Part shown: positions 1 to 64,000 of the stretch, piece by piece
Position numbering within the stretch: position 1 is the first letter of the stretch
Layout of the letters: every line of letters begins with the position of its first letter
Source of the DNA: Bryum argenteum
Lineage: Eukaryota; Streptophyta; Bryopsida; Bryales; Bryaceae
Direction of reading: 5' to 3'
Length of the DNA: 64,000 bases
NCBI GenBank assembly: GCA_037043015.1
Contig: CM073321.1
Coordinates: 12,098,001-12,162,000 of the forward strand
Notes under the pieces: model-generated
The model's input: the letters and a program-made list of their open reading frames with translations, nothing else
Told to the model about the DNA's origin: nothing
Databases searched by the model: none
Position numbers and translations under genes: made by a program

Positions 1-783
1 CTTCGTTCTGGATAGAGCCCTTTGAGCACTATGACTTTGAGTGACTAGAGTATGATGTAGTTTCGATACAAATTCTTTGTATTGTCGTGGAAATATTTTT
101 GGAAATAATGAACAATTTAAAGTTCCTATAATGTAAGATGTTTGTTGATTGATTTTAAGTAGGTTTGGATATGACCTTGTTAATTATTGTGATTGGTGAT
201 GCGGGACCCATTTAAGGAGGTTTGAGTTGTCGAAGATGAAGTGACGGATAATGATAGCGATCTCTGTGCTATGAGAGTCCGTCTTCAAGCTATTGTGGAG
301 TCCTGTCATTTAGTGTTAGCATTGTCCGCACTCCCTACTGGCTCTCTTGTCTGTTAGACTTTGAAGTTTGACGTTGTTCGGGTTGCTAGAGCCAAGTACA
401 TGCGTAACTATTATGTTCAGGCCAGAGCTTGTTGTCTTGAAGCAAAGACAAAAGCTGATATCACCACGACGCTCACCACGTCTAGCAGCAAAGTCTAAAT
501 TAAAGTAACGGTTTCCTAAGAAAATATGATACATTTTATATTATCTATTAAATAAAGGGCTTCATTTGGTATATTCATATTTTAAGTTATCTGTGCTATA
601 CTCTTATTCGCTAGTTGTTTTGTTGTACTTGATAATTTTTATTATCAGATGAGAATATTCCAATACCAATGAATTCAAGACAGACAAGACATTGTACCTC
701 CTCTTGACGATCCACCAGTTCCAGCTCCGGATCAAGACGAGCTTATCGCTGGTGATGATTGAGTTCTCTCAACTCAGGAAACT
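1..783 (+). other. Upstream part of element A1, possible N-terminal exons
   Basis: No clean gene is visible. One plus-strand stretch near 221-305 reads as acidic protein (VVEDEVTDNDSDLC and onward) in the style of the N-terminal part of the A2 copy, and a second readable stretch lies near 360-500. Both are interrupted by stops. The sequence leads into the better-preserved A1 exon at 784, so I infer it is the decayed 5' part of that gene. The element's left end is probably outside the window. Confidence 0.3.
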
Positions 784-1486
784 GTGGAAGGCATCTGCAG
801 TCCAGATCCACAAGATGGCCCTTTGGAAACTGAACATTTACCTCGAGCGACTCAAGATCCTCATGTACAGGAGGCCCTTTCCGATGATGACGGACCTACC
901 TTGCCGGGAAGTGTCAATGTGGGCATCGTGCACATGCCTTCTCATCTTCAAAACAAGGACCCGGACTGGAGTGCGAACGAGATGCGAATGATTCACAAAA
1001 GTGATTCAAATGCGATCATAAACAGGTTTCGTTACAAACCTTTTAAAAAATCTCGCATGCTTATCCCATTGTGTTGTCTCGTTTCTTATCCTAAGGTTCA
1101 ACCTATCTCGGAAGAAGATGTTCGTAAGTTAGAGAATGAGTTCAACAAAGGCTATCGCGAAGGCGATGGGGTTATGTATGTTTCTCCTTCCGATAGGAAA
1201 GGTGGAGAAAAAAGAGTTGATGTAAAAGATGTTGTGTGAGCGAAACCGCTCTGGAGCGCTGCAAATGAAGAGTTCGAGAAGTCGCTAGAGTCGGATCCTG
1301 ATCTTCATCACCTCAGCAACAAGTACTTCTTTGTGTACGAAGGTAACCACCGTGTTACGGCACGGATGCAACATATTGAGAGGTACCACAAGATGGATCC
1401 TTCGTGGTATATTTCAGTGGACTGCATCGTACTAGATGCTCGCGGAGAGAGCAATCTACTCCTTGATGCTTGAACGACATAAATTG
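784..1486 (+). pseudogene. Element A1: ParB-like domain exon
   Basis: This exon encodes an acidic N-terminal region, then NEFNKGYREGDGVMYVS (around 1134-1182), then the ParB-like core FFVYEGNHRVTARMQHI (YEGNHR at 1336-1353), then SVDCIVLDARG. The GNHR box resembles the GxHR/DGxHR box of ParB/sulfiredoxin-fold domains, which hydrolyse nucleotides or cut DNA; the activity here is inference. The same order occurs in A2 on the minus strand near 46.2-46.9 kb (YEGNHKLTTWMRHI, DCIVLDARG). Decay is visible as an in-frame TGA at 1237-1239 and a frame break near 1471, just before a likely donor (GTAAGT near 1486). With the break ignored, the exon end would read DAMNDINW, matching NPMANIIW in A2. The initiator is uncertain. 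Confidence 0.6.
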
Positions 1487-1562
1487 GTAAGTAATTGTCT
1501 CTTTTGTTCAAATTGTATTATTTTAATCTGTTCTCAACTACGAAGTTTTCTTACGTCTCGTT

Positions 1563-3514
1563 GTGCTCTGTAGGTCTATCAAGCATGACTATGTCAAAGA
1601 TAGTTTGTGTGTGAAATTACAACATATGAGGAAGTTTAAAAGATTGAAACTCGAAGATTTCAAGGACCTCATTTCTCCGGAAGATTACACGATTTGCAAG
1701 AATGCGAAAGCAAGAAAGGATACTTGGTATCCTGTTATATTTAACATGTTTGTTAAATTTCTATATGCGGTGAGTTCGCTACTCATAAGCTTTAGCGTGT
1801 TACATTGAATATATTTCAGCACGTATTCTAACCCTTATTTATTTGCAGTATAGAGGAGGTTAGCAAAAGCATCAGACGATGCTGAAGCTAGTTACTACGC
1901 AACTGTTCCAAAGGAGAAACAAACAGGGCCGGGAGTTTGGAGTGCAATGGATAATGCCATCTAGGCGGAAATCAAAACAATCCGTGGCACAACTTTCGAT
2001 AAGATGGTGGCTGTAGCTAGCACCAAACTTGGAAAAGTATTTCCCAAAGAGGTATGTCTCAATCCCTTCCTATTTTCTAGCCCACCCATCCATATTTCAC
2101 ATAACTGAAATCCACATTGTCAATTTATCTCGTTTGCAGATTTATTCTCACTACAGTTAGAACTTAAAGCCGGATATGACGATCGAACGCTTGCACATGG
2201 TAGCCACTACCAATGTCCATTTCGATTTCAAGGAAAAGTCGCTGCAATGGTGGAACACACCAAACGACGTTCGTTGATCTTTCCACTTCCTTGAAGAGCG
2301 CCCAATGAAAGATAAAACTCTCATTGCATTTCTACATCGTGCATCCTTATGGGTACAAGTATCTAGCGTTTTCCTAACTTCTTTAGAGTCATTCTGTAAT
2401 TGCGATATATTAATTTTTAACGGGGTCTTTTTGTCTTTACAGCTTGAACAATCACTAGAAACTGAATTGCAAAAACTGGTGGAAGATGGCAATTTCAACA
2501 TTGAGTGGTCTAGTGTTCTTCTTAAGCCCTCTGCGTATGTGGAGAAGTAGAGTTTGTTCTTATGGGATAAGGCATTTAGCAACTACCTTGATTCTAATGC
2601 AAGCTCAAAGTTCATTAAGGACTCCGATCTTCAGAAGATTGGTGGTGGCAAAGTTACTATTAAACGACTATTATTTCGGTATGCATTCATTTCGCTTTTC
2701 ACTTTCACTAAAAGTTGTACCACATATAAATTTAATCATCTCAGTATGTTCGCTTGAATGTAGGTACTTGAAACAGGAGTTGGTTGTTAAGGGAGCATTA
2801 GCTTCTTCATCCATTCCACTAGAGTTCGAAGACGTCTCGGTGTCCAACGATACCTCCACCATCTTCTCCGAAGACCAACAGAGGCGGTTTTCTACAACAC
2901 AATTGCTAACTGGTGGTTGGTTTCTAGAATGCAAGGACAACCTTGTGCCGAAGGAGGAGAAGCATCTTCTTTGAAATATCGGTTCAAACGCACTTGACGC
3001 TACACCTATGGAGGTTGATGACGACGACGACGAGGACCTCTCAATTTTACCAAGTGCACCTGACCCACCCTCTTTGCCTCCTTCATCGGCTGCGCAACCC
3101 AAACCTCGAGCAAATAAAAAGCGACGCAACGCTGCTGCGGACCCTGTAGTAGATCTTGAGCAAGAATCCGAAGAAATTGCTCCTCTCCCAAAAGACACTG
3201 CAGGGCTAGTAGAAGCTAATCTGACCTAGGCTTCAAATGGAGCGACAAACAATCCAATGAGACACGCTGCAAGATTGACTCATCTTTTAGCAGGTGAACT
3301 TACAAATGCTGGGTCCCCTCCTCAATCATTCAACGTTGACTACAACTCCCTACCGTCCCCACGTCGCCTCAGCCAGCCAAAATTTGCCAAACGCTCACTT
3401 CCGAAACCCAATCACACTGGTAGCAGCTCGTCGTCAAAAATCACTCTGCCTATGTATCTCGAGAAGGGGAGTATTGGAGATTTGGTTCATCAATCGTTGA
3501 AGACTGGAAACTAG
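1563..3514 (+). pseudogene. Element A1: central exons
   Basis: A chain of exons shares its order with A2. KHDYVKDSLCVKLQHMRKF (about 1575-1769) is followed by a GTGAGT donor. A GVWSAMDNAI / TFDKMVAVAS exon (about 1855-2052) matches GVWLAMHAAN / NFDKFLAVAN in A2. Further exons lie at about 2140-2355 and 2443-2679 (ending SDLQKIGGGKVTIKRLLFR). An exon from about 2763 reads YLKQELVVKGALASSS, matching YFTRELVAKGAVSFMA in A2. It continues into an acidic, Pro/Ser/Lys-rich linker (3008-3514) that looks disordered and carries KKRR-type basic patches. Several in-frame stops occur (for example near 1963, 2548, 2972 and 3227). I recognise no named domain; it lies between the ParB-like and methyltransferase-like parts of one broken gene. 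Confidence 0.55.
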
Positions 3515-3650
3515 GATTCGCAAAATTCTTGATATCGTCCAGCACATCAAGAAGGTACTATTTCGTACATTTGTCATTTATAATCTCGCTACTTACATTT
3601 TGTAGTTATAAATCTATTATCTACTATCTAATTATTGACTTGTATCTCAG

Positions 3651-4950
3651 ATTGGAAAAGACCGGAAGTACCCGTGTACGGCGATGGAATATAATCCCAA
3701 GCATCTAGGGATTGATCTTATTTTTGCAGACGCTCCAGAGAACTTATCTGTCCCGGGTGTATCTCCAATGGAAATTCCGACCTGGACCTGGTGTGATAAA
3801 AACAACTTTGAGTGCCTCTTCTTCTTTGCCGCATACCATTGGAGAGAAGTTGGAGCCATTCTTGTGATGCATTCCAAATGTCGTAGAATCGAGCGTACTC
3901 TTGATTTTGAGTCCGCAACATATAATTTTTGTGTTGTTCGAGATTGGTAGGGATATAATCCCCTCCCTTTGGCCTCTACCGTACCACACCCGAAAGGGGT
4001 ACGGGGCAGTTTGTAGTTTCTAAGTTTACAATTGAGGATTACTGCCTTCTATGCTTGTATATTAATATATCTATACTTATGGTTTGCAGACTCACTGCTT
4101 CCACATCAAAGTTTATGTTCGTAAAGAGTTTTTTTCGAGGTTCCAAACTCGGCAAGTGGCACACGCATACGCGGGTGTGGCAATCATACCTGATGAGGAA
4201 GACCACCTCTCTCTAACTTTGCAGACAAAGAGACATTGCGTTATCGTCCAGACAGTACGCCATGGCGAGGCTCACGAGAGAAGGACCCCTCTTTTATTCA
4301 ATGCTTCGTGGATTGCCTCACAGACGATGGAGGTATTGTCTTCAACTGGAGCGCAAGTACAGGTAATGTTTCTTGAACCGCTACTTTAGAAATAATTAAT
4401 ATGTTCTGCGTTTCTAACATGGGTTTCTGAATCTTTAGGGGCACCTGTAATTGCTTGGCGCGCTCAATCTGACACCTGATCGCTATGGAACCTGATGAAG
4501 AAATCTTTGATGGTGTACTAGCAGATTACAAGAATGGTCCTCCCGGTGATGAAGAAAGTGGAGAATCAGCCCCCCTCAGATTATGACTCTGACGAACCGC
4601 AAGTGAAGAAGCCATGAAAGTTCATTTGTGCGTAATACCATCTTCTAATCTCTTCCTCAATTTTAAATTACGCACTTACAAATTGGTAGTATTGACTTTC
4701 TTTGTACTTTTAGGATCGCAGGTCTGAATGAGCGATTAACTCGCATTGCTCATCTTTACAACAGCCCTCCATCAACATTCACCCTACCTTCCGATGCCGA
4801 GCGTCTTGCACAAGAGTTCGTTTGAGATCCATCTCCCATTTTGTGTGACAGTACACGTCCATGTTTTAGCAATAGTGTGCTTAAGTTTATAGACTTTGAG
4901 GCTGATGAGTGTGACCAACACTTTAATGGTGCTACACCTTCAGCTTAGAG
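3651..4950 (+). pseudogene. Element A1: N4/N6 DNA-methyltransferase-like domain
   Basis: The first exon (acceptor CTCAG just before 3651) encodes HLGIDLIFADAPENL (DAPENL at 3729-3746), which resembles motif IV ([DNS]PP[YFW]) of DNA amino-methyltransferases after a beta strand. FFFAAYHWREVGAILVMHS follows (about 3813-3872), the expected helix and strand of motifs V-VI. A second exon (about 4090-4362) reads REKDPSFIQCFVDCLTDDGG and then NWSASTG, resembling motifs X and I. After a 76-bp GT-AG intron (4363-4438), HLIAMEPDEEIFDGV resembles motif II. The order IV...X-I-II is that of beta-class (permuted) enzymes. Decay: DPP reads DAP, there is a TAG at 3948-3950, and frames break near 4200 and 4470. 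A final exon reads IAGLNERLTRIAHLYN (about 4714-4760). A3 preserves the X-I-II part better. Confidence 0.6.
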
Positions 4951-5640
4951 TGTGATTTGTTTTCTCATAGGTACTAGACATGGTAGCGCCATACATTCGT
5001 AGTTGGCATCATCTATTACTAATATACTATCTATATGTGTTTTTCAATATATACGGTTTTATATTTCTACTTATCATGATTATGGTTTATAGCTTAATCT
5101 ACACTAAATGTTTTAAGTATTACTCTACGTATGTCAATATAATGTATTCGAAGCCATGCTTGCCTCTAATGGTGACGTCAGCCCTAATTTTGATGTAAAT
5201 CCTTCAATTATAATTTCAATGCATCGGTGTACCTATTCTCGCGATCCCTAATCCAGAAGCGAAATGTGTAAATAACTTAAACTCTTAATCAGGGGGAAAA
5301 TTGGCTTCGAATTTTATAAGGTGGCAAGCGATGACACCAGCCCTAATTTGTTGACAACAATCTAATAACTTTTGATTATTCATTATTTGAGGACTTATGA
5401 AATGGAGCCAACTTTTTCTTTGCGCGGAAATAGGATCTAACTTCATGGATTTGGGGTACTCATTTCGACTTAACTAATCCTAAATATATTTCATGACACT
5501 TAATTCAACGGTCACAGGCTCACTATCTCAAGTACTCTGAGTGGTAATAGGGTCTTAATCTTCCATGAAAAAAAAAAAACAAAACTGCCAATCACCGCTC
5601 ACCGCTCACCACTCTCCGCTCACACCCGTGCATTCCCCCT
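4951..5640 (+). repeat. 3' noncoding end of element A1 with terminal ACCGCTC repeats
   Basis: This is AT-rich noncoding sequence. It is matched in reverse complement by 62.98-63.30 kb next to A3, for example GATTTGGGGTACTCATTTCG against the CCAATTCAGTACCCCAAATT region. It ends with short repeats ACCGCTCACCGCTCACC, then ACTCTCCGCTC and CGTGCATTCCCCC (5592-5639). The same terminal pattern, in the orientation expected from gene direction, ends A2 (43198-43235) and A3 (about 62983-63010). I therefore take it as the element's 3' terminus. Confidence 0.6.
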
Positions 5641-5706: not shown

Positions 5707-8598
5707 ATGATACCCACACTTGTCAAAGCTTGCAGAATTGGTGACTTTGTCATCGATGGTGTGGACTTTTGGCCTCCTGTATTTCCAAATAATGTTGCTC
5801 AATGTGAAGGTTTCAGTTGATCCTCTTGGATGTCCAAACGAGTCACACTCTTGAATGAAGGTGGAGACGATGTCGCAAATGCGGTGTGTCAGTCCGTTTA
5901 CTCAACTCTTGTTCCCCAGACAGATGGTAGACCATTGGGCATAGACTTTGTCTGTGATCAAATAGCAGAGTCTTTGGTAGAAACTTGTTCCGTATGGATG
6001 GATTTACTCATTGCGTGCATGGCCGATTAAACGTGTCATTCTCAATGGTGCCACCCTTTACGATCACAACCAATGCGCAATATACAATGCAGCAATGAAG
6101 TCATTTGGAAGACCTCCTCGGAATGGCGTTCGACAAGACGAAAGATTCCGTAAGAGGAGTCCTCGTAATTCAGCACCAAAAAAACAATATCACTTGACAT
6201 CTGCATCGATCAACTATGTGTCAACCAACGCTTGTTGTTCGGAGAATTGTGTTCAGCCTTTCCCTCGAGGAAAGATTAAAGATCTTAGGACTCAATTCTA
6301 TGTGACCGGAGACGTTTTCTTCAGAAAACATCGTCTCCTAGACATTCATGGCCAAGTCTATAAAATGAAGACAAATACGATGTGATAACATTGGTAGGTA
6401 TTGAGGTCTGTTGCATTGCATGGGCCTTGATTATGGGTGTTTCAAAGGCCACGTTCTTCAGGTACAGGTTTCTTTACCAAGACAGAGCACAAGCAAATCA
6501 TCATGGAAATTGTAGTTCCAAGAAGCCTCGTATTCACATGGTGCAAGCAACTGCTACCCTTAAGGCTATTGTGGAAAATGCGGCTGACCTTATGCCTCAT
6601 CAAACTAGAACAGCTCCTATAGGTGAGATGGTAGTATCAAAATGCTTGCCCTCCTTTTACCGTTGGAGAGACAGCTTACCACAAGTGAATGTCGTGAACG
6701 CCACGAATGGCCTCCTGCCATATCGCATTCATCTTTGAGCAAGACACGACAAGACAGTTCCTCGGAGTGTTATGCGAAGCTAAAGGGTGACACATTTGCT
6801 TGTTGTGGTGAATGTGATATGATCAAGCAACTTCGAGCGTCTAGTACGCCTGGTAGTCGTGCATGGGCTCTTCACAATGTCGGATTCAAAAAACACAACA
6901 CATCTCAAATGTCGCACAGGCTATTGTATTATGCCAACCGCGAGTCGTCAAAGTCATACCCAAAGAAGGAGTTGTGTATTATACATGACAAAATGGATCA
7001 TTCAGAGACTGCCTCTCCACAATTCTCCTACAAGAGCAAATCAACAGATTCTTTTATGAAGTTGCCGGATTTGATCACGGACATGATTGCGCATGGGCAC
7101 GGTGGCGTACGCTATACACATTATGGCCTTGACATTTACTCGACGGATTCCAATCATACGATTGGGTCATTTGCTCAACTACTGAGAGATTTAGAATCTC
7201 AACTGTAATGCTCTACAAGGGAATTATTACTGCAGGCAGAAGTGACCCCCTCTCAAAAGCGGTTTTGGATGGTGCTGACATCTGCTTGGATTTGCTTGGT
7301 CTTATATCCGAGGCACCAATCCATGCTAAATCACTACCACCGATGTTGCATTTGCAGCTCGATAATGCGTGCGGAGATAACAAGAACCGATTCGTATTTG
7401 CGTTCTTTTCCCTTCTAGTTTATAAGGGCATTTTTAGGGAAGTTTATTTGAACTTCCTTATCGTTGGACACACTCATGAAGATATTGACCCTCTTTTTGG
7501 GCGATGGAGCAATAAGTTGAAGAGCAACAGTTACCCCACTGTACCCCTTCTGATGAAATCATTCATGGATACGTGAGAAATGCCAGTCATTCTCCACATG
7601 ATTGAGGAAGTTCCAAACTTCAAGAATTTTCTTGAAGGCTATTTGTGTGATGGGGACGAAGCATTATCGAGGCATACCAGTGCACAACAATTCCGGTTCT
7701 TCAAAGATACATCCGGGTGGCCTCTTATGCAATACAAAATTCTTTGTACGGATAGTGAGTGGCTCCCAAAAGACATTGCTGGAATTAGGTTGTCAAAAGT
7801 ATTATCTAGTGGTCAACCCAAGGTTCCACTCGGAGAGCCAACATTGGTGGTTCCAAATGAGATGAGGAATATTGACGACATTTGTAAGGGCATCAGTAGA
7901 TTTGTGAACATGTCGGAGTCATTGGTGGATGCTGATCCATATGGGGATAATCGTAGGCAACACGAGCAATTCATTTACTATTAGAAGTCTGTTTGCGAGG
8001 CTCTAGACTTGCCTATTTCTACTCCTTCTGCATTTAGGAACGGATTTTGGCCAACATCAAGGTTCTCCCCGAGTGAAAAGGATCAATTTGAGACAACGGA
8101 GAATTGCGTGAGGAATTTGCTAATGATCCTCCATTTGTAGGACAAAGGCGAGACCGTCCTAACGCATCATTTAGAGTTATCCGCAATTGTTATGAGGGAT
8201 ATCTACTTGCCCTTTGTCCACCTGATGAAGATTCTAAGAAGGTTTGGATGGCCCGAGCTTTGAGCAACCCTCATGATAGTGTGGAACACCCTACTTCAAT
8301 TCCGCTAGAGTATTGGAAGCCAACATCTTATAAACATGTTGACCCTGATACTTACAAAGGGTGGGACACGAAGAAAGGTAACTCTTGGTTGAAGGACACA
8401 AAGTATCGACCAATTAAGATGGCTACTACTTCCATTATGACAGCTTGGAAACTAAGATTCCATTCCGGGACCATGAATCCGAAGATGTCTATACCGACAA
8501 CAAAAATGAATGTGATCAAAGATTCACTTACGGAACTTCTCGACTTATTTGTTGCCATCACTTTTATTGTGATTACCTTAAGCTTTCCTTATTATTGA
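5707..8598 (+). pseudogene. Decayed DUF7869-type (transposon-like) gene
   Basis: The diagnostic part is at about 7340-7575: HLQLDNACGDNKNRFVFAFF, then FLIVGHTHEDIDPLFGRWS, then YPTVPLLMKSFMDT. I associate this pattern with the DUF7869 family of multicopy, presumed transposon-derived proteins. Upstream parts fit the same family: a Cys-rich ACCSENCVQPFPRGKIKDLR (about 6228-6290), IEVCCIAWALIMGVSKATFF, and a CCGECDMIK box near 6800. Downstream, a C-terminal part runs from 7580 to 8598 with RPNASFRVIRNCYEGYLLAL and PLEYWKP. At least five changes of frame or in-frame stops occur (a TGA at 5818-5820; breaks near 6010, 6382, 6720 and 7200), so it is not translatable. The biochemical role of this family is unknown to me. 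It lies between the end of A1 and the start of B1, on the same strand. Confidence 0.6.
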
Positions 8599-24296: not shown

Positions 24297-25643
24297 TCAG
24301 TCCTGACGAGGATGACTAGCCAACCAAGATGCAAAAATCGCATCTCTAACACGCCCACCAGCTACTCTAGCAGCATCAACGTCAATCACAGGCTGATGGC
24401 AAGGTATGTGGTTACGCTCTACATCACGAGGAAATCCATCAGCTGGTTCGGGCATCCCCTGTAGCTGGCAAAAATTGTGCAATGCACAACAAGCTAAAAT
24501 ATATAATCCTGCCCTATCTATCATAGGAGTGAACATATGCAAAATCCTCCAACGGTTCTTGAGAGAACCAAAACAGTTCTCAATCAAAACCCTAGCCACA
24601 TTCATGGAAGAATCAAACCTATTTTCGTCTATTGCTTGCGGAGTCCTCATCTTGAAGTTCTTCAGCAGGTACGGGCGCAAAGGGTAAGCTGAATCACCCA
24701 AGAGAAACGGGGCAACCTCCACGTCCCCGATACAAACAACGGGCTCCTTCAGAATAGATCCAGCAGCTAGCATCTTCCCTAGAGCAGAAGCTCTAAACGC
24801 TCCTGCATCATGTACTCCTCCAGGCTGCGTACAAGACACATCCCAGAAAAGCTTATCTGCATCACATACGCCCTGCACAACCACACTCAAAAGTCTCTTA
24901 CGGTTGTAGAAATCAGCGGCAGCGAGTGTGAGTCTGAGAGGGGGTTTAGCAGCTAGTTGGATGTGGGTCCCATCAATAACCCCACAAATCTGAGGAATGC
25001 CTGTCATCTCCGCAAACCTAGCAATAGTAGAAGCTAAGCGTGCACCACTCGGAATCTGGACGTATAAACCGAACAATTTCTCTCTATCAGAGAGAATATC
25101 ACAGACAATGACGGTGTACTTCCTGATGGTGGAAGCGCCTACGTTGTACAAATCTACCATACGCTCTGGACTAATCCCGTGTGCCAAACTATACAAAACA
25201 ATCTTCAGAATGGTACGAGGGGATAACGGACAGCGAACATAGAAAGGTGCAAAACGTAAGAAGGGGGTGATAAGAGCCACGAGCTGCTCGAAAGCAAAAA
25301 AAGTCATCCGGTAAGAAGATAAGTATTGTCTATCGAGAAACTCTGGCGATGTAAACCACACATCCCTTTCTATGATATCAGAATGTATACTCTGTCTAGG
25401 AATCTTCCACCACATCCTCTGGAGCTCCTCTATCTCACTGGGAAGTAACAAGGTTAATGCAAGTAAATCTCGCTGTAAGAGGGAACGCTCGTCAGTGAAT
25501 GGAATCGGCCTTGGGGTAATACGAAACAGGCGAAATCGAACCGGTCTAAAACGCTTCTTGGCCCTCAAGGGTCGAGGAACTGTGAAAATGATCGTCAAAA
25601 GAAACCAAATGCCGACTATCTCGGCGATTGTAGGATCCGCCAT
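24297..25643 (-). CDS. PIF/Harbinger DDE transposase, intact 448 aa
   Basis: A single uninterrupted frame encodes a Harbinger-type nuclease. The N terminus has a hydrophobic stretch (residues 9-22) and a basic region. The first catalytic Asp is D224 in ICGVIDGTHI, the second D317 in LLGDSAYPLRPYLL, and the Glu is E355 in ARVLIENCFGSLKNRWRIL. Other family marks are PGGVHDAGAFRASALG (274-289) and the closing YILACCALHNFC (381-392). Length and motif order match full-length Harbinger ORF2. The enzyme cuts and rejoins element ends with a 3-bp target duplication and needs ORF1 as DNA-binding partner. It is the only full-length open transposase in the window, in contrast to its damaged ORF1, suggesting recent activity or mobilisation in trans. 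Host HARBI1-like genes are less likely given the TE context. Confidence 0.92.
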   Translation of the reverse strand: MADPTIAEIVGIWFLLTIIFTVPRPLRAKKRFRPVRFRLFRITPRPIPFTDERSLLQRDLLALTLLLPSEIEELQRMWWKIPRQSIHSDIIERDVWFTSPEFLDRQYLSSYRMTFFAFEQLVALITPFLRFAPFYVRCPLSPRTILKIVLYSLAHGISPERMVDLYNVGASTIRKYTVIVCDILSDREKLFGLYVQIPSGARLASTIARFAEMTGIPQICGVIDGTHIQLAAKPPLRLTLAAADFYNRKRLLSVVVQGVCDADKLFWDVSCTQPGGVHDAGAFRASALGKMLAAGSILKEPVVCIGDVEVAPFLLGDSAYPLRPYLLKNFKMRTPQAIDENRFDSSMNVARVLIENCFGSLKNRWRILHMFTPMIDRAGLYILACCALHNFCQLQGMPEPADGFPRDVERNHIPCHQPVIDVDAARVAGGRVRDAIFASWLASHPRQD

Positions 25644-26750: not shown

Positions 26751-29558
26751 TTACGCGTTTATCAATCTATCACGTCTTCTGAGGTCTTGCACTTCATAAG
26801 CTATATTTTGAGTCCTGCCTTGTTTGGGATTTATTATGTTAATGAACTTGTGCATAATGCATCTTACAGATCTTATACACATGTCGTCAAATGTAACAAA
26901 GAAATTGTTCTTGATCGAGTTCATTCCGGTGATTGGATCCACTTTGTCTACCTCCACCCCGTTCAGTATTTGTGAATAATTCTGGTAATAGTCAGCAGAG
27001 AAATATACTTCGATTTCCTCGTTGTGCTCATGACTAAAAATTTCTCTTATTCTTTCTTTGTACGGGGTCTCGTGTTCTTCATCATTTATTACAACCACAT
27101 CATCGCCAGCCTTATATATTGTTCGTCCCAACATACATCTTTTGTGAAGAAGTACGTGCGGTGGATGTGTGGTTTCTAATCCTCGTACACGATGCCGCAA
27201 ATAAGACCAGATAACCTGAGAAGCTTGTACATGTTTGTTGTCAGCTCTACTAATCAATATCCCCTTTCGTTTTGCTGAAATGACACATACGCAATCATGA
27301 GATGCCTGCATTAAAAACTAAAACACATCCAACGCTTTCTTCTTAGAAGTCATATGTAAACAACAATTATGATGCCATGGTGGGCATGGGAAATTGTTGT
27401 CGTGATTTTCGACAGTGCCTTCCGGAAAAAGCATCACTTCATGTACTAGTGCCAATGCCTTCTCAAAACTCTCTAATCCATCACTTTCAATCTGCACACA
27501 TATTTTCACTTTCTGAAACAATCTGCGAGCACAATATCTTATAAATTTTGCTTCCACTGATTTTTGATTTGTCTTGATATTTTGATATTTTTGGACCTCT
27601 CTCTCAAATGGAAAGCACCAGTACATATCGAGATGACCAAACCGTCTTACATCTTCCAAAAAGTGACCCGCTCCTGCTGCATATTCAAGTGGCCTTCCAT
27701 TTGGACCATCGAGCGCTTCTGAATATATACGCCACTTCTGAAAAAAGAATTGAACAAAATTTAAATCATCTTCTGTCCAACCTTCACTCCTAGTACGAAC
27801 AAATAAATAATGTCCAATATCTACAAGCAAGTGCCCAACCAAGACCCTTTCATCAGATAATGCTCCATCTAGTTTGTTTAGTATGATAGGTAGCATCCAA
27901 AGTACGCAATGTTGATATTCTTCGACAATATAACTTTCGTGGTCATCGACAATATAACTTTCGTGCTCTCCACTTGCGAACACTTTCATGAAGTTCTTTA
28001 GCACTTCGTCTCGCAGGTGGATGTCGTACTTGCAATTCATTATCCCCGTAAATGTATCTGCCGTCTGCGTTCTGTGTCGAATTCATTTTGCATCTTTTAC
28101 ATCCCCATTTTCCCGAAGATTTCAAATTTGAAATCTTACACTGTGCCGGGTGAGTAGTGAGCAACATCAATATATCTCTGATTTCTGGTGTTTCCGAGTT
28201 TCGAAGAATGTAACTAATCCGCCTATTCGGATAGTTATACTGACAACTAATACCACCTAAGAATAAGTCTTCAAGTTCTTCAACAAATGGTTGAATGAAA
28301 GCGGAAATGTTTTCTTTCATACGCTCTACTGTATACGCTTCGTGACCTCCCAATGGTATGGATAAAACCGGTAAGAGAGATATACTTGATGCAGTTCCCG
28401 CATCCAATACACTAATTTCCATTGCCCAGCAACCTCGTCTCTTCTACCCTGATACGTTGAATCCATCCCAATGCGCGCCTAGAGCTATGTTACGAGGATC
28501 CCCTCTTTCAAAAACTCTAGGCGCCTTGATAACAGTTTTACACTTCCAACATGTGAAATTATAACATCCTAATTCATTTTTCCATCGATAAAGTAGTTAT
28601 CGCATTTTGTTGGAAATCCATTATATAACATCTGACACTTATCATTTAGGCAAGTTATTGGCAATTTTCATTGGCTATGTGGATTCCAAAAATCTTGGTA
28701 TTCCCTCACCTTCTCACCATCCCAAAAGTGTTTAATTTGTTGGGGTGTTGCATTAGTAGTCAACCAATCAAGTCGATTCCGCCACATTGTCAACATTTTA
28801 TAGCATAAAGATTTTGATTCCATAATGAATGACAATTGGTTTGCAATCGGGAGGTAATCAAACGCAATCATATCGGTCCTTGCTTTTCCACAATGTGTAC
28901 AATGTATTGCACTTTATTCTTCTGCTGGGGGTAATATAACTGGCTCGTGAGAATATTCTTTGGTGCCCAAGCACATCCGCCACCGTTTTGGCTCAACCAA
29001 CCCCCATCTTTTATATAAACCAATCAATCGCTTAAAAGAAGACGGTGTTGAAGAAGGTCCTTGAAGATTGCCTGTCCAATCAATAGGCATCTTTCTTATA
29101 AGGGCGCCTAGTCCATCTTTATAATTAAAATCATTTGCGTCGTCATTTAGAATTAGGTGTCCATATAATTGTTTTAGCATGTAATTTTGCAACTCAATGG
29201 ACATTTCTTTGCTATCCCATACTTCTTGTACCTTAATTATTTTGTTTTTTAAAATCTCTTGGAAATTATGGAAACAATCGTTGATATTTTCTTCTCCTAC
29301 ATCCATTGGGACATGCAAAGATGGTTCCCCTTCAGATTCAACCGCTTCAGAGATGGGAAAATCTTCATCACTCGAAATATCAGGTTCTGCAGATGCTAGT
29401 TGTATATTTATTCGTCTTTGCAAGTTTTCTTCAATCCTTTGGTGAGCTTGTTGTGTCCTAAAATCAATCATTTTGTATCCAAGAGCAACACCACGTATAG
29501 TAAATCGTCGACATTTTGTACACTCACAGCGAACTTTTCTATTGCGATGTCTATCCAT
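26751..29558 (-). pseudogene. Tnp2/EnSpm-like transposase gene, broken
   Basis: Pieces in order on the minus strand are as follows. 29558-28914: an N-terminal CECTKCRRF finger, acidic linker, then LQNYMLKQLYGHLILNDDAN. 28871-28668: KMLTMWRNRLDWL. 28500-27943: ALGAHWDGFNVSG, then AFIQPFVEELEDLFLGGISC then ILRNSETPEIRDILMLLTTH and a CKISNLKSSGKWGCKRC region. 28040-27318: HYLFVRTRSEGWTEDDLNFV, GAGHFLEDVRRFGHLDMYWC FPFE. 27311-26751: a C-terminal GDDVVVINDEEH and FSHEHNEEIEVYF module. The DGFN and D(I/V)RRFG..YWCFPFE boxes recall Tnp2-type (CACTA) transposases and the associated DUF4218 region. At least four stops or frame breaks are present. No CACTA terminal repeats were found. Confidence 0.6.
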
Positions 29559-40269: not shown

Positions 40270-41400
40270 TAATCCAACTCAACTCGAGCAAGATTAAGTT
40301 GAATTTAATTCTCATAGAAGAATTGAAGTACAGCATTTCAACTCGACTTGAGTTGAATAAGAAGTACAATTTACTACTTAACATTACAACGCTCCAAATA
40401 TATTTCAATGAGATTCAACTCGGTTTGAGTTGAATTCTTACTTCATGTTTATAATTACCTGGAATTAGATTTGTGACAATTGACCTCGCGAATCCCAAAT
40501 AACCCACAACGCTTCTTCTCGCAAAAAACTCAAGCTCACACAAAGAGTAGGAAATTCAACTCGAGTCGAGTTGAATCTCTTAACTAGAAGCGTACACCTT
40601 ACTATAGGTGGTTACCAACAAGCCCAAGCAATTGCTTAACATGAAGCACTACAATTATTAATAAAATGTAGAATCACAAGAATTATTGAAAAGAAACTTC
40701 GAGAAAAGATGGCGTAAGCAATTCAATTCGAGTTGAGTTGAATCTATCAACTAGAAGGACATAAACTAATACACTGCTGGTACACGCATTAAGCATTGCG
40801 GTTGTGAAATGATGTTCTACAACTCAGCATCGCGGAAGAGATACAATGACTAGATAACGTAGAATCTCACAGTTTTAACTCGACTCAAGTTAAACAGACA
40901 CATGTCCATCCACTAGAGCCACCGTATCATAGATTCAACTCAACCTAAGTTGAACAGAGAGAAATCCACTTATAGAGCCACCATATAATAGATTCAACTT
41001 GACTCGGGTTAAATTTCCAACAAATCCACTCATTAGAGCCACCATCAAATAAATTCAACTCGACTTGAGTTAAACAAATACAATTGATCTTATTGGAGCC
41101 ACTACAAGAGAGATTCAACTCGACTCGAATTAAATATCCTTCAACTCAACTGAATAGAAACACCATACAATATATTCAACTTATCTCGAATTAAGCAGAG
41201 ACAACTCCACTCACAAGAGCCACCATATGATACATTAAAGTCAACTTGAGTTAAACATAGACAACTCCCTCACCAGCGCCACCGTAAGATAAATTCAACT
41301 CCAGTCAAGTTGAATACAAATCGAGCGACTATGATTTACTTTCATCCTCTACTCTCAAACAAATTGATCACGTGCTAGTTCAACTTGCCTCGACTTGCAT
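40270..41400. repeat. Array of palindromic TTCAACTCGACTCGAGTTGAA-like sites
   Basis: At least 14 copies of a near-palindrome occur, for example TTCAACTCGACTTGAGTTGA (40328), TTCAACTCGGTTTGAGTTGA (40411), TTCAACTCGAGTCGAGTTGA (40553), TTCAATTCGAGTTGAGTTGA (40719), TTAACTCGACTCAAGTTAAA (40877), TTCAACTCAACCTAAGTTGA (40932), then about every 60 bp to 41300. From 40.87 kb the spacer also repeats (CACTCATTAGAGCCACCATA-like), making a 60-bp tandem unit. The same palindrome recurs in B2 introns at 43.0 and 56.8-57.1 kb and near 58.11 and 59.74 kb. Confidence 0.85.
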
Positions 41401-44353: not shown

Positions 44354-47000
44354 CTACAACCGGATCATGTTGGCTTCCTTGTGTAAGGTCGCCAAAGTCC
44401 TCACTGTCGCGTCTGAAAAGTAAAGCGGATTCCGTTTGTGAAGATGGAACACTTGCATCAATCGGAAGATTATTCGGCGCACGTTGATGCCTCGCTGGAG
44501 CGCGTCTCTTTCCACCTCAAGCAGCCCGGCAAATAGGTTCGCTAGCAAAATCATCGTCATCGCCAAAGTCTCGAATGTCAACGCGATCATGCAGTGTGGA
44601 GGCAATACCAACTGAAAGAGCAAGATCGAAATCTGTGGGTGGAACGTAGCTCTTAGAGCAATCTAAAAACCATGCTCTAGTTTTTAGCTTTGCAAGAGTA
44701 AACCTCTCATACTGGGTTGTTGTGAACGCATTGTGCGAGCTGTCTTGCTCGGTCACGAGGTGGAAAAATGGGGGGAGAGCCATGAAAGAAACTGCACCTT
44801 TTGCTACCAATTCACGAGTGAAGTACCTCGGCAAAAATTGAAAGTTAGATTTGGGATAAATAAGTTCGACAAAACAAATTGAGTAAATACTGTATATAAA
44901 GTTTCTTACCAGTATACTTGAAGATTGATTGCCAACTTTCCGTTATCAAATTTCTGCAAGTCAGTTGCCCTTGTGAATTTAGGATTGCAATTTGGAGACA
45001 AAAACGCAAGGTAAGCATGCTGCCAAAGGGAAAGTCTCCAGAACTCAATGTAGTTAGATGGTCGGATGATTTTGTCGTCCCATACAATTGGCATGGGGTG
45101 TCCTTGGAGAATGTCGGCAACAGCAGTCACGAGCACCGTCTCCAACTACATGTATAATGGTGGATTAGATATGTACATTGAACACAACTATATTTTGAAG
45201 TAACGTATGAATACAAGAGTTAATACTGAAATTACACAAGATTGATTAAACTTCGAACCTGAGCTTGGAAAGCCGCCTTTACAATCTAACATCAAAACTT
45301 CTCTCTTTCATAGGACGGTCATTGGGAAACTGCACACTTCGGCGGACAATGTCTGGACTATTCCAGAATTTAAGCCATTTGGCTTTGTACTCGCGTGAAA
45401 CATGGGAGCAAGCTATTTTTTAAAGGCTCTCAATTGTCAAATCAGGCCCATGAAACTGTGTGAAGTAGGCATTAATTAGGACACAATAACATGGAAGCTA
45501 ATGTAAGAATATCATCTTACAGTTGGAATGACAAATAAGAATATTGAAAGGTTGAATGGAGTGGACCTCATCAAAAATTGCCGAGCCATTCTCAGGATTT
45601 GCCACCGCCAAGAACTTATCGAAGTTCTTTCCACGTGATTGCTTGACTGTTTTTAGATTGGCTGCATGCATAGCCAATCAAACTCCATGGCCACTTTGTT
45701 GGTTTGGTGGTGTATTTTGTTTGTAATGCACTACTGCGAGGTCTTGAGCACGAACAAGCTCCCTCTAAAAGATTAAGCAAAGAATCAATTTAGAGTGGGA
45801 TAGGATGGAACAAGGGAATCGAAGGAAAGAAAAGATTGAATCTAGTTTGAGTATGGCTTACCTGGAACAAAAATGAGACAAAGACGTCAATAGTGAGGGG
45901 ATAACACTTAGGTACCATGTCTGGCTTTTTCCTTCAAGCACACTTCATAAGAGGCCGACGGGATCAGGTCCTTAATCGCTTCTAAAGACAAGTTACCAAA
46001 TGTTCTAATGCATTGTAACTTTGCAAGTAGACTCGTTTTGACGTGGTCAATTTCTGTTGACCTTTAAACAATCATCCGCACAATAAAAGTCAGAAAAATA
46101 TTAACATATGAGTAATTGATATTATAAAGGAATAATACAGAAGGTAAAGTTACCAGATAATGTTAGCCATGGGGTTGAGAAGGACTCCATTACTTCCTCG
46201 TGCATCAAGAACAATGCAGTCTAGTGCTAAATGCTAAGAAGGGTCGTTCTCGTGGAAGTCTTGGATATGTCTCATCCAAGTGGTGAGTTTGTGGTTACCT
46301 TCATAGACATACAACATCTTACCCATAAACTGTTGCAGATGAGGGTCTTGGGCCAAGTCTCTCTCAGAAGAGTGATTGGCATCAACCCAATGACTATTCC
46401 AAGTGCTCTGAATGTCGTCAACGAGGAGTTCATTACTTAAGTTGTCGTAAAGCGAGACGTACATAACACGGTCACCTTCTCGGTACCCTCGAACGAACTC
46501 GTTCTGTAACCTCTAAACGTCGGTTTCTAGAACAGGTCGCACTTTTGGATAGAAAATGAGGCAACTCAGAGGAACGCAAAGCCAAGACTTCTCAACAGGC
46601 TTGTTGCGAAGCCCGTTGATGACAACAACAGAATCTGTCGTAGTGCAAAGCCGAATTTCATGTTTGCTAAATTTCGGATCTAATTCACGGAGATGGACAG
46701 GGTGCTGAGCTATGCCATCTTCATCTTCATCTTCAGATGGGAAAGGAGGGCTCTCCGTTACTCCCTCTCTCTCCAGAGTAGAGTGTCTCTGAACAAGCTT
46801 AGGACTTGCCAGAGATGGCAAGGTGGCAAGTGGGTCTTCGAGTGGAAGAAATTGGACACCCATGTCATTGATTGAGCTCAAAAACGGAGTACTTCAATCT
46901 TCATGATTTACTTCCACCAAGTCATTATCGCCAGCGTCAAGACGACCAAAGACAAGAACATCTGGTTCAAGTTCATTTGGTGGAGGGTTGTCATTGTCTC
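44354..47000 (-). pseudogene. Element A2: ParB-like gene, methyltransferase part not seen
   Basis: From right to left on the minus strand: an N-terminal acidic region (MGVQFLPLEDPLATLPSLAS, 46865), PLSCLIFYPKVRPVLETDV, then NEFVRGYREGDRVMYVS, DANHSSERDLAQDPHLQQFM, and YVYEGNHKLTTWMRHIQDFH (about 46330-46270) with DCIVLDARGSNGVLLNPMAN. Exons toward 44.5 kb match A1 in order: DHVKTSLLAKLQCIRTFGNL, NFDKFLAVAN, HAYLAFLSPNCNPKFTRATD LQKF (45145-44906), YFTRELVAKGAVSFMALPPF (44834-44517). YEGNH is kept but R is K, and stops sit inside the domain. Downstream, 44517-44100 no longer matches the A1 linker or methyltransferase, so that part seems deleted or diverged. The protein cannot be made intact. 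Confidence 0.6.
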
Positions 47001-58339: not shown

Positions 58340-59515
58340 CCAGGCTTTGTTGGTCTCTAGGGTGTTCCAAATGTAAGTCTTTCTAATGAGGTCTCCCCAA
58401 TGCAAGAGAATAGTCCACTAAGTCCTTCTCATGTTGAGCTAAGTTACACGCTGCAAGATGATCACACTAAGGCTCGCATTCCGGATGTCATTCTGCTCAT
58501 GGTTTACATTCCTCTTCCATCCTCGACCGTTGTACAAGATCCCCATACAAGAAAAACTGACTCGATGGCGCCGATAAGAAATTCAAGTACCAATATCTCA
58601 ATAACACCAAATCCTTCCTTTATGAAATTGATGTGGTCACATGGTTAGGATATTGAATCGCTTCGTGAAATGGCGTTGTTGAGTCTCAAAATGTAACAGT
58701 GGAGTACTTAAGTGTCTACACATTTGTATATCCCCCTTCACAACAGGAGATGAGTAGTTTGTACAATCCGATAGATGCAGCATTGGAGGTTGTACCTCGT
58801 TTTATTCCTAAAAAGGTGCCATGCAACTGGCTCAATGTTATCCTGGAATCGCGTGGTATGCTCTTTGTCTGCAAGGAGAAGAGATTTTTGCTGAAGGACC
58901 AAGCTCACAACATGGTCTCGAATGTACATTCCTCTGTCCTTCATGTTGCACTCGATTCCAAGGGAGTTTTTTGTTCGGCCCTATTGTCTTGATTTCCTTC
59001 GTGAGTTGACTGCAGTTGCATACGTCTTTGTATGGAGTTCAATCGTCCAAGCGACCATGAAGTCTATATGTGATTACTTGTTTATGGGTGTGCCGTCCTC
59101 CTACCTTATTTGGGGGCAGAACTCATGTGAGCTTGTGAAGGTTCTTGAACTTCGGAATAAGTTGTCCAACTTCAAGGTGAAGGGGAGTAATAAGGATATT
59201 TTCCTTAAATCCGTGGATAAGCTTTTCGATGGTCTAAATTTAAAGTTCAATGCGCAAGACACGATCCTCATCATAAACGATAGCCGTGCAAAGCATGTCG
59301 TAAATGAACATGAGAACGTCCTTCTGCCAGTCTCGCGGTCAGAGCGTGATGTCTCTCACAGACTCTTGGTTGACAAGATCCTTCCTTGGATTCAACGGCT
59401 GCATCTAAGCCGCAATCGGAACTTGTTGTCTTCCGAAGGAAAGACTACATTGGGCGTAGAATGCTCTCGGAAGAACTCAATAGTTCAAAATATGAGGAAT
59501 TTATTAGCGCCGTAG
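58340..59515 (+). pseudogene. FCP1/NIF-like HAD phosphatase domain, catalytic residues lost
   Basis: After a Ser/Pro-rich lead (58400-58648) the frame reads PCNWLNVILESRGMLFVCKE, where NIF/FCP1 domains have the nucleophile box DLDGTL or DxNGxL; here the Asp positions are changed. A frame break in a T run (58967-58972) joins to EFFVRPYCLDFLRELTAVAY VFVWSSIVQATMKSICDYLF, matching V.LRPG...FL..L...V.VWSS. Then FLKSVDKLFDGLNLKFNAQD TILIINDSRAKHVVN, matching the D(D/N)SP motif. FCP1/NIF proteins dephosphorylate proteins such as the RNA polymerase II tail. Without the nucleophile this copy would be inactive even if made. It lies inside B2, flanked by its tail sequence and palindromes, so it may be captured or a second element ORF. 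Confidence 0.65.
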
Positions 59516-63300: not shown

Positions 63301-64000
63301 GAGCAAGACGCTCAGCGTAGGTAGGATGAATGTTGATGGAGGGTTGTTGTAGAGATGAGCGTTGCGAGTCAATCGCTCTTTCAGACCTGCGATGCTAAAA
63401 GTACAAAGAAAGTCAGTACAATATATTTGTTAGTGCGGAAATCAAAGTTGAGAAAGACAATAGAAGATGGTATTACGCACCAATGAACTTTTGTGGCTTC
63501 TTCACTCGCGGTTTGTTAGAGTCATAATCCGCGCATGGGGCTAATTCTTCACTTTCTTCATCACCGGGAGGACCATTCTTGTAATCCACTAGAACACCAT
63601 CAAAGATCTCTTCGTGAGGTTCCATAGCGATCAGGTGTTGATTTGAGCATGCGCAAGCAATTATAAATGCACCTAAAGATTTAGAAATTCACGTTAGAAA
63701 TGTGAAATGTGTAAACAAATTCTAAAGTAAACGTTACAAAAACATTAACTGTACTTGCGCTCCAGTCGGAGACAATACCTCCATCGTCCGTGAGGCAATC
63801 CACGAAACATTGAATGAAGAAGGGGTCCTTTTTACGTGAGCCTCGCCATGGCGTACCGTTCGGACGATAACGCAATGTCTCTCTGTCTGCAAAGTTACAG
63901 ACGTGGTCTTGCTTATCAAGAATGATCGCCACACCCGCGTATGCGTGTGCCACTTGCTGAGATTTGAACTTCAAAACAAACTGCTTATGAACATAGACCT
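63301..64000 (-). pseudogene. Element A3: best-preserved methyltransferase X-I-II region (runs off the window)
   Basis: On the minus strand the exon entering from the right edge reads VAHAYAGVAIILDKQDHVCN FADRETLRYRPNGTPWRGSR, then KKDPFFIQCFVDCLTDDGGI VSDWSAST (to 63749). The donor is TT instead of GT. The next exon, from 63672 after TTTAG, continues in phase as GAFIIACACSNQHLIAMEPH EEIFDGVLVDYKNGPPGDEE. Together this gives IVSDWSASTG...AFIIAC...HLIAMEP, a good match to motifs I and II of beta-class DNA amino-methyltransferases (VLDPFxGTGTT..AA...R..IG.E). A last exon reads IAGLKERLTRNAHLYNNPPS (about 63395-63310). Frames are open longer here than in A1, but the mutated donor would block normal splicing. 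Upstream exons, including any motif IV, are outside the window. Confidence 0.65.

Follow-up and report, generated by a model that had tools for sequence, protein, structure and literature searches.

Introduction

The closest described relative of the element treated here is Sola1-1_Ec32, a 21.5-kb Sola1 transposon of the brown alga Ectocarpus, in which a gene for a 1104-amino-acid (aa) protein with a ParB domain and an N4-methylcytosine/N6-methyladenine (N4mC/N6mA) DNA methyltransferase (MTase) domain lies opposite the transposase gene (PMC12477816, Dinatale et al. 2025, Genome Biology). According to the portions of that paper available to us, similar transposon proteins are known from green and red algae (cited there from Iyer, Abhiman & Aravind 2011 and Petroll et al. 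2025). Here, we describe a comparable element from the moss Bryum argenteum, found in a stretch of 64,000 nucleotides (assembly GCA_037043015.1, contig CM073321.1, positions 12,098,001 to 12,162,000 of the forward strand), which is called the window throughout. A preliminary description of the window proposed a multicopy plant element encoding a ParB-like domain joined to a beta-class MTase-like domain and knew of no named plant transposon family built in this way; the Ectocarpus element and its green- and red-algal counterparts make that last remark outdated, so the class itself must be regarded as already known.

As far as the available portions of the Ectocarpus paper describe it, Sola1-1_Ec32 is similar to the Bryum element in combining a ParB-like and an N4/N6 MTase part in one protein, in encoding it on the strand opposite the transposase and in being a large DNA transposon. 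The two are likened by description, and they differ in host, in the Sola1 assignment and the protein length of the algal element, in element length (13.3 kb here) and in the number of ParB-like places, at least 130 in Bryum. Mobile DNA with a modification gene of a different enzyme class is further represented, as described in the parts of the papers available, by C5-MTases in retrotransposons (PMC5890265) and by TET/JBP genes in fungal DNA transposons (PMC12730594). No second close precedent was found in the open-licence literature, outside which most subscription journals lie, so that this absence is weak evidence. What appears to be new is a very large family, the co-occurrence of several diverged families within a single genome, and a split in the catalytic motif.

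At 205-5638, the window carries what is left of the right part of a multicopy transposon, probably of class II, in decayed form. The analysis as a whole is best explained, with a probability of about two in three, by a decayed part of a transposon with two divergent genes, of which one encodes an accessory DNA-binding protein.

Structure of the element

A total of twenty longer copies were analysed, with extra upstream DNA for three. One complete element of 13,347 bp was obtained at C1:4579906-4593252, C1 being the contig of the window, by joining the loci L016 and L029. Its ends read GGGGACGTAGCTACGGTGTGAGTGGAGAGCGGTGAG and (reversed) GGGGAATGCACGGGTGTGAGCGGAGAGCGGTGAG. In an ungapped comparison they share 18 of 40 positions, and far more once one is shifted by a single base, which brings the GGTGTGAG..GAGAGCGGTGAG part of the two ends into agreement; the left end, GGGGACGTAGCTACGGTGTGAGTGGAGAGCGGTGAGCG, thus repeats the right end imperfectly and in inverted orientation. 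The same left end was observed in a second copy (L019 with L030), and none was found in L015 with L031. The right-terminus pattern was searched, with up to four mismatches, in the window and 20 loci (L001-L008 were left out). Of these 21 sequences, 16 carry it and L012, L013, L019, L021 and L027 do not, and the DNA beyond it differs at each of the 16. The right flank of the complete element begins in exon f of a diverged member, at about 76% identity, which indicates that the complete element lies inside a relative.

The left half of the complete element encodes, on the minus strand, a long transposase-like protein with an early Cys/His cluster, the central motifs CYFHW and NLAES and a late CSCPVF...CKHL piece, read in L030, that is SWIM-like by eye. 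The five pieces scanned against Pfam gave no match to a transposase profile, and SWIM was reached at no better than E 0.13. Inverted ends with a transposase-like gene between them are therefore present in one complete copy, and in relatives the transposase-bearing left part lies further upstream. A two-gene anatomy, with a transposase-like gene divergent from a gene of about eleven exons for a ParB-like/beta-class MTase-like protein in a class II element of about 13 kb, is very probable. MuDR/VANDAL-type plant elements are also two-gene class II elements; their accessory proteins are not MTases, and the analogy is functional only.

Tandem arrays were observed in several copies, with units that differ between them: 26-27-bp units in L031 (19.8 copies at 2263-2787, beside the gene of L015, with a 426-bp unit at 1-1452) and in L016 (10.9 copies at 1-291, between the two divergent genes), and a 117-bp unit in L010 (16-1294), upstream of the ParB-MTase-like gene. 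No tandem array was found in L030 (8.6 kb).

The copies in the window

The ParB-MTase-like gene of the window copy, A1, is made of about eleven exons (a to k) at 205-4822 on the + strand, with predicted exon limits. The overall anatomy in the preliminary description was borne out by these eleven coding blocks with short introns on the + strand, but its limits, 784-4950, proved too narrow, as coding starts from about 205 and the right terminus, GCTCACC repeats ending CCGCTCACACCCGTGCATTCCCC at 5583-5638 (+ strand), closes at 5638. Exon a (205-462, 5′ coding) was recovered by tblastn at E 6e-30, the query being derived for the most part from the corresponding open exon in L010, and it holds two in-frame stops. 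Exon b (650-1481, with tblastn support over 769-1470 and one stop) comprises an acidic N-part and the ParB-like core, with the pattern IPLCxL...YPKVxPISExDV...GYREGD...YEGNHR; its outer limits are predicted from GT-AG sites and the alignment to open copies, its ParB label comes from phrog_1033 matches of relatives, and its similarity to a separate family, at E 1.8e-29, is beyond chance. After the core come exons c (1575-1769, open), d (1854-2051, one stop), e (2140-2352, two stops), f (2443-2676, one stop) and g (2762-3523, three stops), the last being an acidic, low-complexity linker. The MTase-like part follows in exon h (3651-3995, one stop), with the motif IV region IDLIFADAPENL and the strands after it, exon i (4090-4364), with motifs X and I PWRGSREKDPSFIQCFVDCLTDDGGIVFNWSASTG and a frame break near 4209, and the frame-broken exon j (4438-4596), with motif II, and the 3′ coding exon k (4715-4822) is open.

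Each of the five peptides quoted earlier has a single occurrence in the window, and all lie on the + strand in the order stated, namely YEGNHR (1336-1353), FADAPENL (3723-3746, present as claimed with its start corrected from 3729), REKDPSFIQCFVDCLTDDGG (4275-4334), NWSASTG (4344-4364) and HLIAMEPDEEIF (4473-4508), the MTase-like motif II in exon j. Since they lie in separate exons and the frames of exons i and j are broken, A1 has no single read-through frame. The two further copies were also confirmed. A2, a diverged relative at 44643-46713 on the - strand, repeats the ParB part; it consists of exons b-g, with 34-51% identity where whole exons are compared, and no MTase part was found in it; A3, at 63316-63998 on the - strand, repeats the 3′ MTase-like part with exons i-k of an A1-like copy that runs past the window end.

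Copy number and head-to-head pairing

The genome searched comprises 258.8 Mb, and the copy counts are lower bounds that cover the best-scoring candidates only. The A1 stretch gave at least 49 matching rows (best 39 of 759 candidates), in agreement with the multicopy nature proposed for it; these include the window itself at 100%, two scraps of 32-37 bases at 94-95%, and others that are 72-90% identical. A 272-aa transposase-like fragment gave at least 142 matches (best 142 of 1215), many of them about 95% identical, and a ParB-like exon of a relative (query P0002) gave at least 187 (best 131 of 1571). Open frames of 700-800 aa surround many of the listed transposase-like matches, and frames of 300-490 aa many of the listed ParB-like ones. 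The transposase-like gene was probably active recently, as the identity of about 95% and the open frames of 700-800 aa suggest. The view that the copies are dead holds for A1 to A3 and fails genome-wide, given the long open frames of other copies; in the exon rows printed, L010 has one stop (exon e), and L011 has none in ten exons, exon g lying outside the rows.

Of the 130 ParB-like places listed, 14 have a transposase on the opposite strand no more than 16 kb upstream, and one of these is the element that supplied the transposase query. Random placement gave a mean of 0.95 pairings and a maximum of five in 500 trials, so among the listed places head-to-head pairing is about fifteen-fold above random; a further four of the 130 have a listed transposase in some different arrangement alone. 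In this count, secondary rows of one place were dropped, three pieces near C4:20514 kb were taken as one and the lengths of C8 and C16 are guesses; because both lists hold the best-scoring matches only, the counts are lower bounds. For the A1 family, pairing was observed at three of 39 listed places, with one more in a different arrangement.

The MTase-like part

A search of the genome with PF01555 (N6_N4_Mtase) revealed 15 matches, two of which, L032 on C4 and L033 on C7, pass the cut-off; they belong to one family and are almost identical. The L032 region, read through one intron as P0001, gave E 2.8e-7 against PF01555, with 31.1 bits over a cut-off of 26.7, and E 8.5e-11 against phrog_67, 'DNA methyltransferase'. 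Exons h and i of the A1 family align with L032 across motifs IV, X and I, and exon j has motif II, so that the beta-class order IV-X-I-II is present in A1, and the proposed beta-class MTase-like part in this permuted order stands, with a relative that passes PF01555. Five of the other 13 matches were read: L034, L035 and L060 represent one further family of this type, and L058 (C5) and L059 (C2) were rejected as members, being ordinary host methyltransferases by eye.

ParB-like exons lie upstream of the MTase-like loci L035 (as L036) and L032 (as L037), and MTase-like exons lie downstream of the ParB-like loci L064 (as L073) and L068 (as L074). Together with the A1 gene model, these four adjoining pairs place the two parts side by side in five families, which agrees with the joint occurrence claimed for them.

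The 22 exon h rows of the A1 family aligned at motif IV read DAPE in 15 cases, NAPE in three, and HAPE, NVLE, VAIE and DVPE in one each; L006, matched in two pieces and left out of the alignment, reads EALK. In each of the 22 rows the motif ends in E, never in Y, F or W, no DPPY occurs, and the catalytic pattern [DNS]-P-P-[YFW] is thus lacking in this family. Seven loci outside the A1 family were surveyed (L032-L035, L060, L073 and L074), with DVPE in L074, DIPE in L034, DISE in L035 and L060, and DYPD in L073; among the families surveyed, only L032/L033 carry an aromatic motif IV (DTPF), and three families besides that of the window have an acidic fourth residue. The fourth motif IV residue of N4/N6 MTases stacks on the flipped base. 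With glutamate or aspartate at this position, ordinary catalysis is unlikely. N4/N6 methylation by the DTPF family may be entertained tentatively, as somewhat short of an even prospect, and by the DAPE family of the window it would be quite unlikely.

Phage proteins show homology to the MTase-like part (phrog_67, as above, and phrog_498, the later part of which matches P0001 at E 0.01), and nine solo phage MTases read DPPY, DPPF, DIPY or DLPY at motif IV, in contrast to DAPE in the window's family. E. coli YbdM matches the first part of phrog_498 at E 2.5e-10; the MTase of that family would thus follow a ParB domain, and phages appear to have ParB-MTase fusions.

The ParB-like part and constraint on the gene

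The conserved core of the ParB-like part, from 12 members of several families, starts as KSRxxIPLCRxxxxxxVRPxxxxDVxxLxxxFxxGYxxGxxVxYVS and continues with W ... FE..L..DPDL..FSxKxFxVW/Y-D/E-GNHRxxAW ... WxxxVxCIxL ... AMxDIN. By eye, it resembles the two N-terminal boxes of ParB with about 45 extra residues between them. The profile phrog_1033, 'ParB-like partition protein', was matched by six of 12 members in the alignment A4 (best E 0.007) and by six of 12 in the alignment A5 (best E 0.0013), the two sets overlapping, and it is the only PHROG matched by more than one ParB-like member. Among phages, a tblastn search with the ParB part gave no match in one search and five records at E 5-10 in another, and one scan of viral contigs led nowhere.

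The ratio of nonsynonymous to synonymous divergence (dN/dS) was calculated pairwise from 5 to 23 copies per exon, with gapped rows dropped and stop codons skipped. It ranges from 0.08 to 0.18 in exons b-e (0.08 in c) and from 0.25 to 0.37 in f-i, with 0.24 in j, 0.34 in k and 0.54 in a (5 copies only). The coding exons are thus constrained across copies (dN/dS <1) despite the altered motif IV. Exons b-d show a synonymous divergence of 0.98-1.18, against 0.19-0.27 in exons h-k, and with this inequality the copies look like mosaics produced by recombination or gene conversion.

Chromosome distribution and surroundings of the window copy

C1 makes up 44.1 of 258.8 Mb (17% of the genome) and holds 34 of 39 A1-family, 58 of 130 ParB-like and 70 of 142 transposase places among those listed, with none of the 15 PF01555 matches. 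This chromosome may be rich in repeats and perhaps linked to sex, and the selection of candidates may contribute to the bias.

Beyond the right end of the element, a DUF7869 gene remnant (PF25273, E 1.4e-31) was located at 6642-7576. It was rejected as part of the element, as it lies beyond the terminus at 5638 and, in L024, the terminus adjoins a related DUF7869 sequence at a different point of that sequence; in L022, such sequence lies near the terminus. This suggests repeated nested insertion.

Elsewhere in the window, an open frame of 448 aa for a PIF/Harbinger-type transposase occupies 24297-25643 (PF13359, E 1.5e-24), and a PIF/Harbinger-like gene match to PF04827 was also detected. The region 26751-29558 carries tnp2/En-Spm-like remnants (PF02992, 6e-5) and a BAH-like piece (E 0.006), both below the cut-off. 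The PIF/Harbinger-like and tnp2-like genes are in keeping with the plant label of the preliminary description, although by themselves they are no proof of it. A fragment of an NLI-interacting-factor-like phosphatase, possibly captured or a host gene, is located at 58922-59515 (PF03031, above the cut-off), and a direct repeat of about 60 bp with the core TTCAACTCGACT is present in seven copies at 40900-41323.

Discussion

Several observations weigh against reading the region as part of a two-gene transposon with an accessory DNA-binding protein. At the sole copy with both ends, no target-site duplication was seen. Exons h-j of the A1 family alone gave no Pfam or PHROG match. A listed transposase within 16 kb is lacking, in any arrangement, at 112 of the 130 listed ParB-like places and at 35 of the 39 listed for the A1 family. 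Over all exons, dN/dS in the most similar pairs is as high as decaying copies should show, at 0.72 for L010/L011 and 0.50-0.58 for the pairs among L015, L016 and L019, with 0.22 for L014/L025 and 0.19 for L022/L027; as four of the six pairs fall at 0.50-0.72, individual copies probably decay once inserted. For the ParB-like part, Pfam ParB (PF02195) gave no match at E <=10 with 12 and 12 members of overlapping sets, and PDB sequence and profile searches gave nothing relevant. When two element profiles were aligned by hhalign to a set of ten ParB proteins of the YbdM type, the probabilities were 0.1 and 0.3 percent. The best pairing, that of the second profile, set DGNHR on DGFHR, and its score of 14.6 fell short both of an unrelated phage MTase profile (20.5) and of the top ten (15.9-20.7) among as many as 40 controls with shuffled columns. 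In hmmsearch, run in both directions, the true ParB pairs ranked among the shuffles. The ParB-like assignment made at the outset thus keeps its phrog_1033 matches, has failed in the PF02195, PDB and YbdM comparisons and stands with modest sequence support.

The exon b domain might accordingly have another fold, with a DGNHR/EGNHR box that merely resembles box II of ParB, and the failure of every comparison but phrog_1033, as well as the roughly 45 residues between the boxes, speaks for this. We consider it rather unlikely, since phrog_1033 recurs in half of each overlapping set and no other PHROG in more than one member, ParB-MTase fusions seem present in phages, and the published algal protein of equal layout is annotated as ParB-like in the portions available (PMC12477816). 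That the gene belongs instead to a ParB-MTase-like host family, repeatedly picked up by transposons, is highly improbable: the many ParB-like places without a transposase would fit such an origin, but the lists hold only the best 131 of 1571 and the best 142 of 1215 candidates, segments of 4-5 kb are found repeatedly, 74-97% identical and with a common terminus and different flanks, and head-to-head pairing clearly exceeds random placement. An endogenous virus was rejected, as many short introns, inverted ends and the transposase-like gene indicate a transposon; no viral hallmark gene turned up in the pieces scanned, and no search aimed at viral hallmarks was made.

The preliminary description also suggested that a mobile methyltransferase could mark its own DNA. 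An active self-marking enzyme of this kind would find the element through its ParB-like part, add N4mC/N6mA and so hide it from silencing. The motif order of beta-class N4/N6 MTases, the D-T-P-F motif and PF01555 match of L032/L033 and the constraint on the coding exons are consistent with it, and binding and modification of its own sequence have also been proposed for the Ectocarpus element (PMC12477816, in the portions available). Motif IV argues the other way, being DAPE in 15 of 22 rows of the window's family with E at the end of all 22, and the aromatic residue is replaced in L074, L034, L035/L060 and L073 as well. Active self-marking is therefore judged unlikely, and for the lineage of the window the suggestion is doubtful.

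In the transposon reading that we prefer, the element would make an accessory protein divergently from its transposase, and this protein would recognise the element's own DNA. The chances that the ParB-MTase-like protein is such a transposon-encoded DNA-binding factor appear about evenly balanced on the basis of sequence. The ParB-like part would bring the protein to element DNA, perhaps to the tandem-repeat arrays that some copies have upstream, as putative binding sites. The MTase-like part may bind S-adenosylmethionine and DNA and, in the lineage with an aromatic motif IV (DTPF, L032/L033), might methylate the element. For the DAPE family, a DNA-binding module that is altered or has no catalytic activity would be more likely. 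Candidate roles of the protein are to shield the element from silencing and to help the transposase. A more elaborate, partition-like self-recognition is speculative and very unlikely: the ParB-like part would nucleate on iteron arrays (units of 26-27 or 117 bp) in the interval that separates the divergent genes, ahead of its own gene, and spread along the element, and the MTase-like part, catalytic in the DTPF family and a non-catalytic reader or spreader in the DAPE/DVPE families, would mark or coat it, so that it evades silencing and regulates transposition.

Transposon-borne DNA methyltransferases are of interest for the means by which mobile DNA evades epigenetic control by its host, and for the origin of eukaryotic N4mC/N6mA enzymes. 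The Bryum genome offers a natural experiment in this respect, with at least 130 ParB-like places, diverged families, some open frames and both plausible and altered catalytic motifs; as families of both kinds occur in one genome, methylation as the function of such proteins becomes testable.

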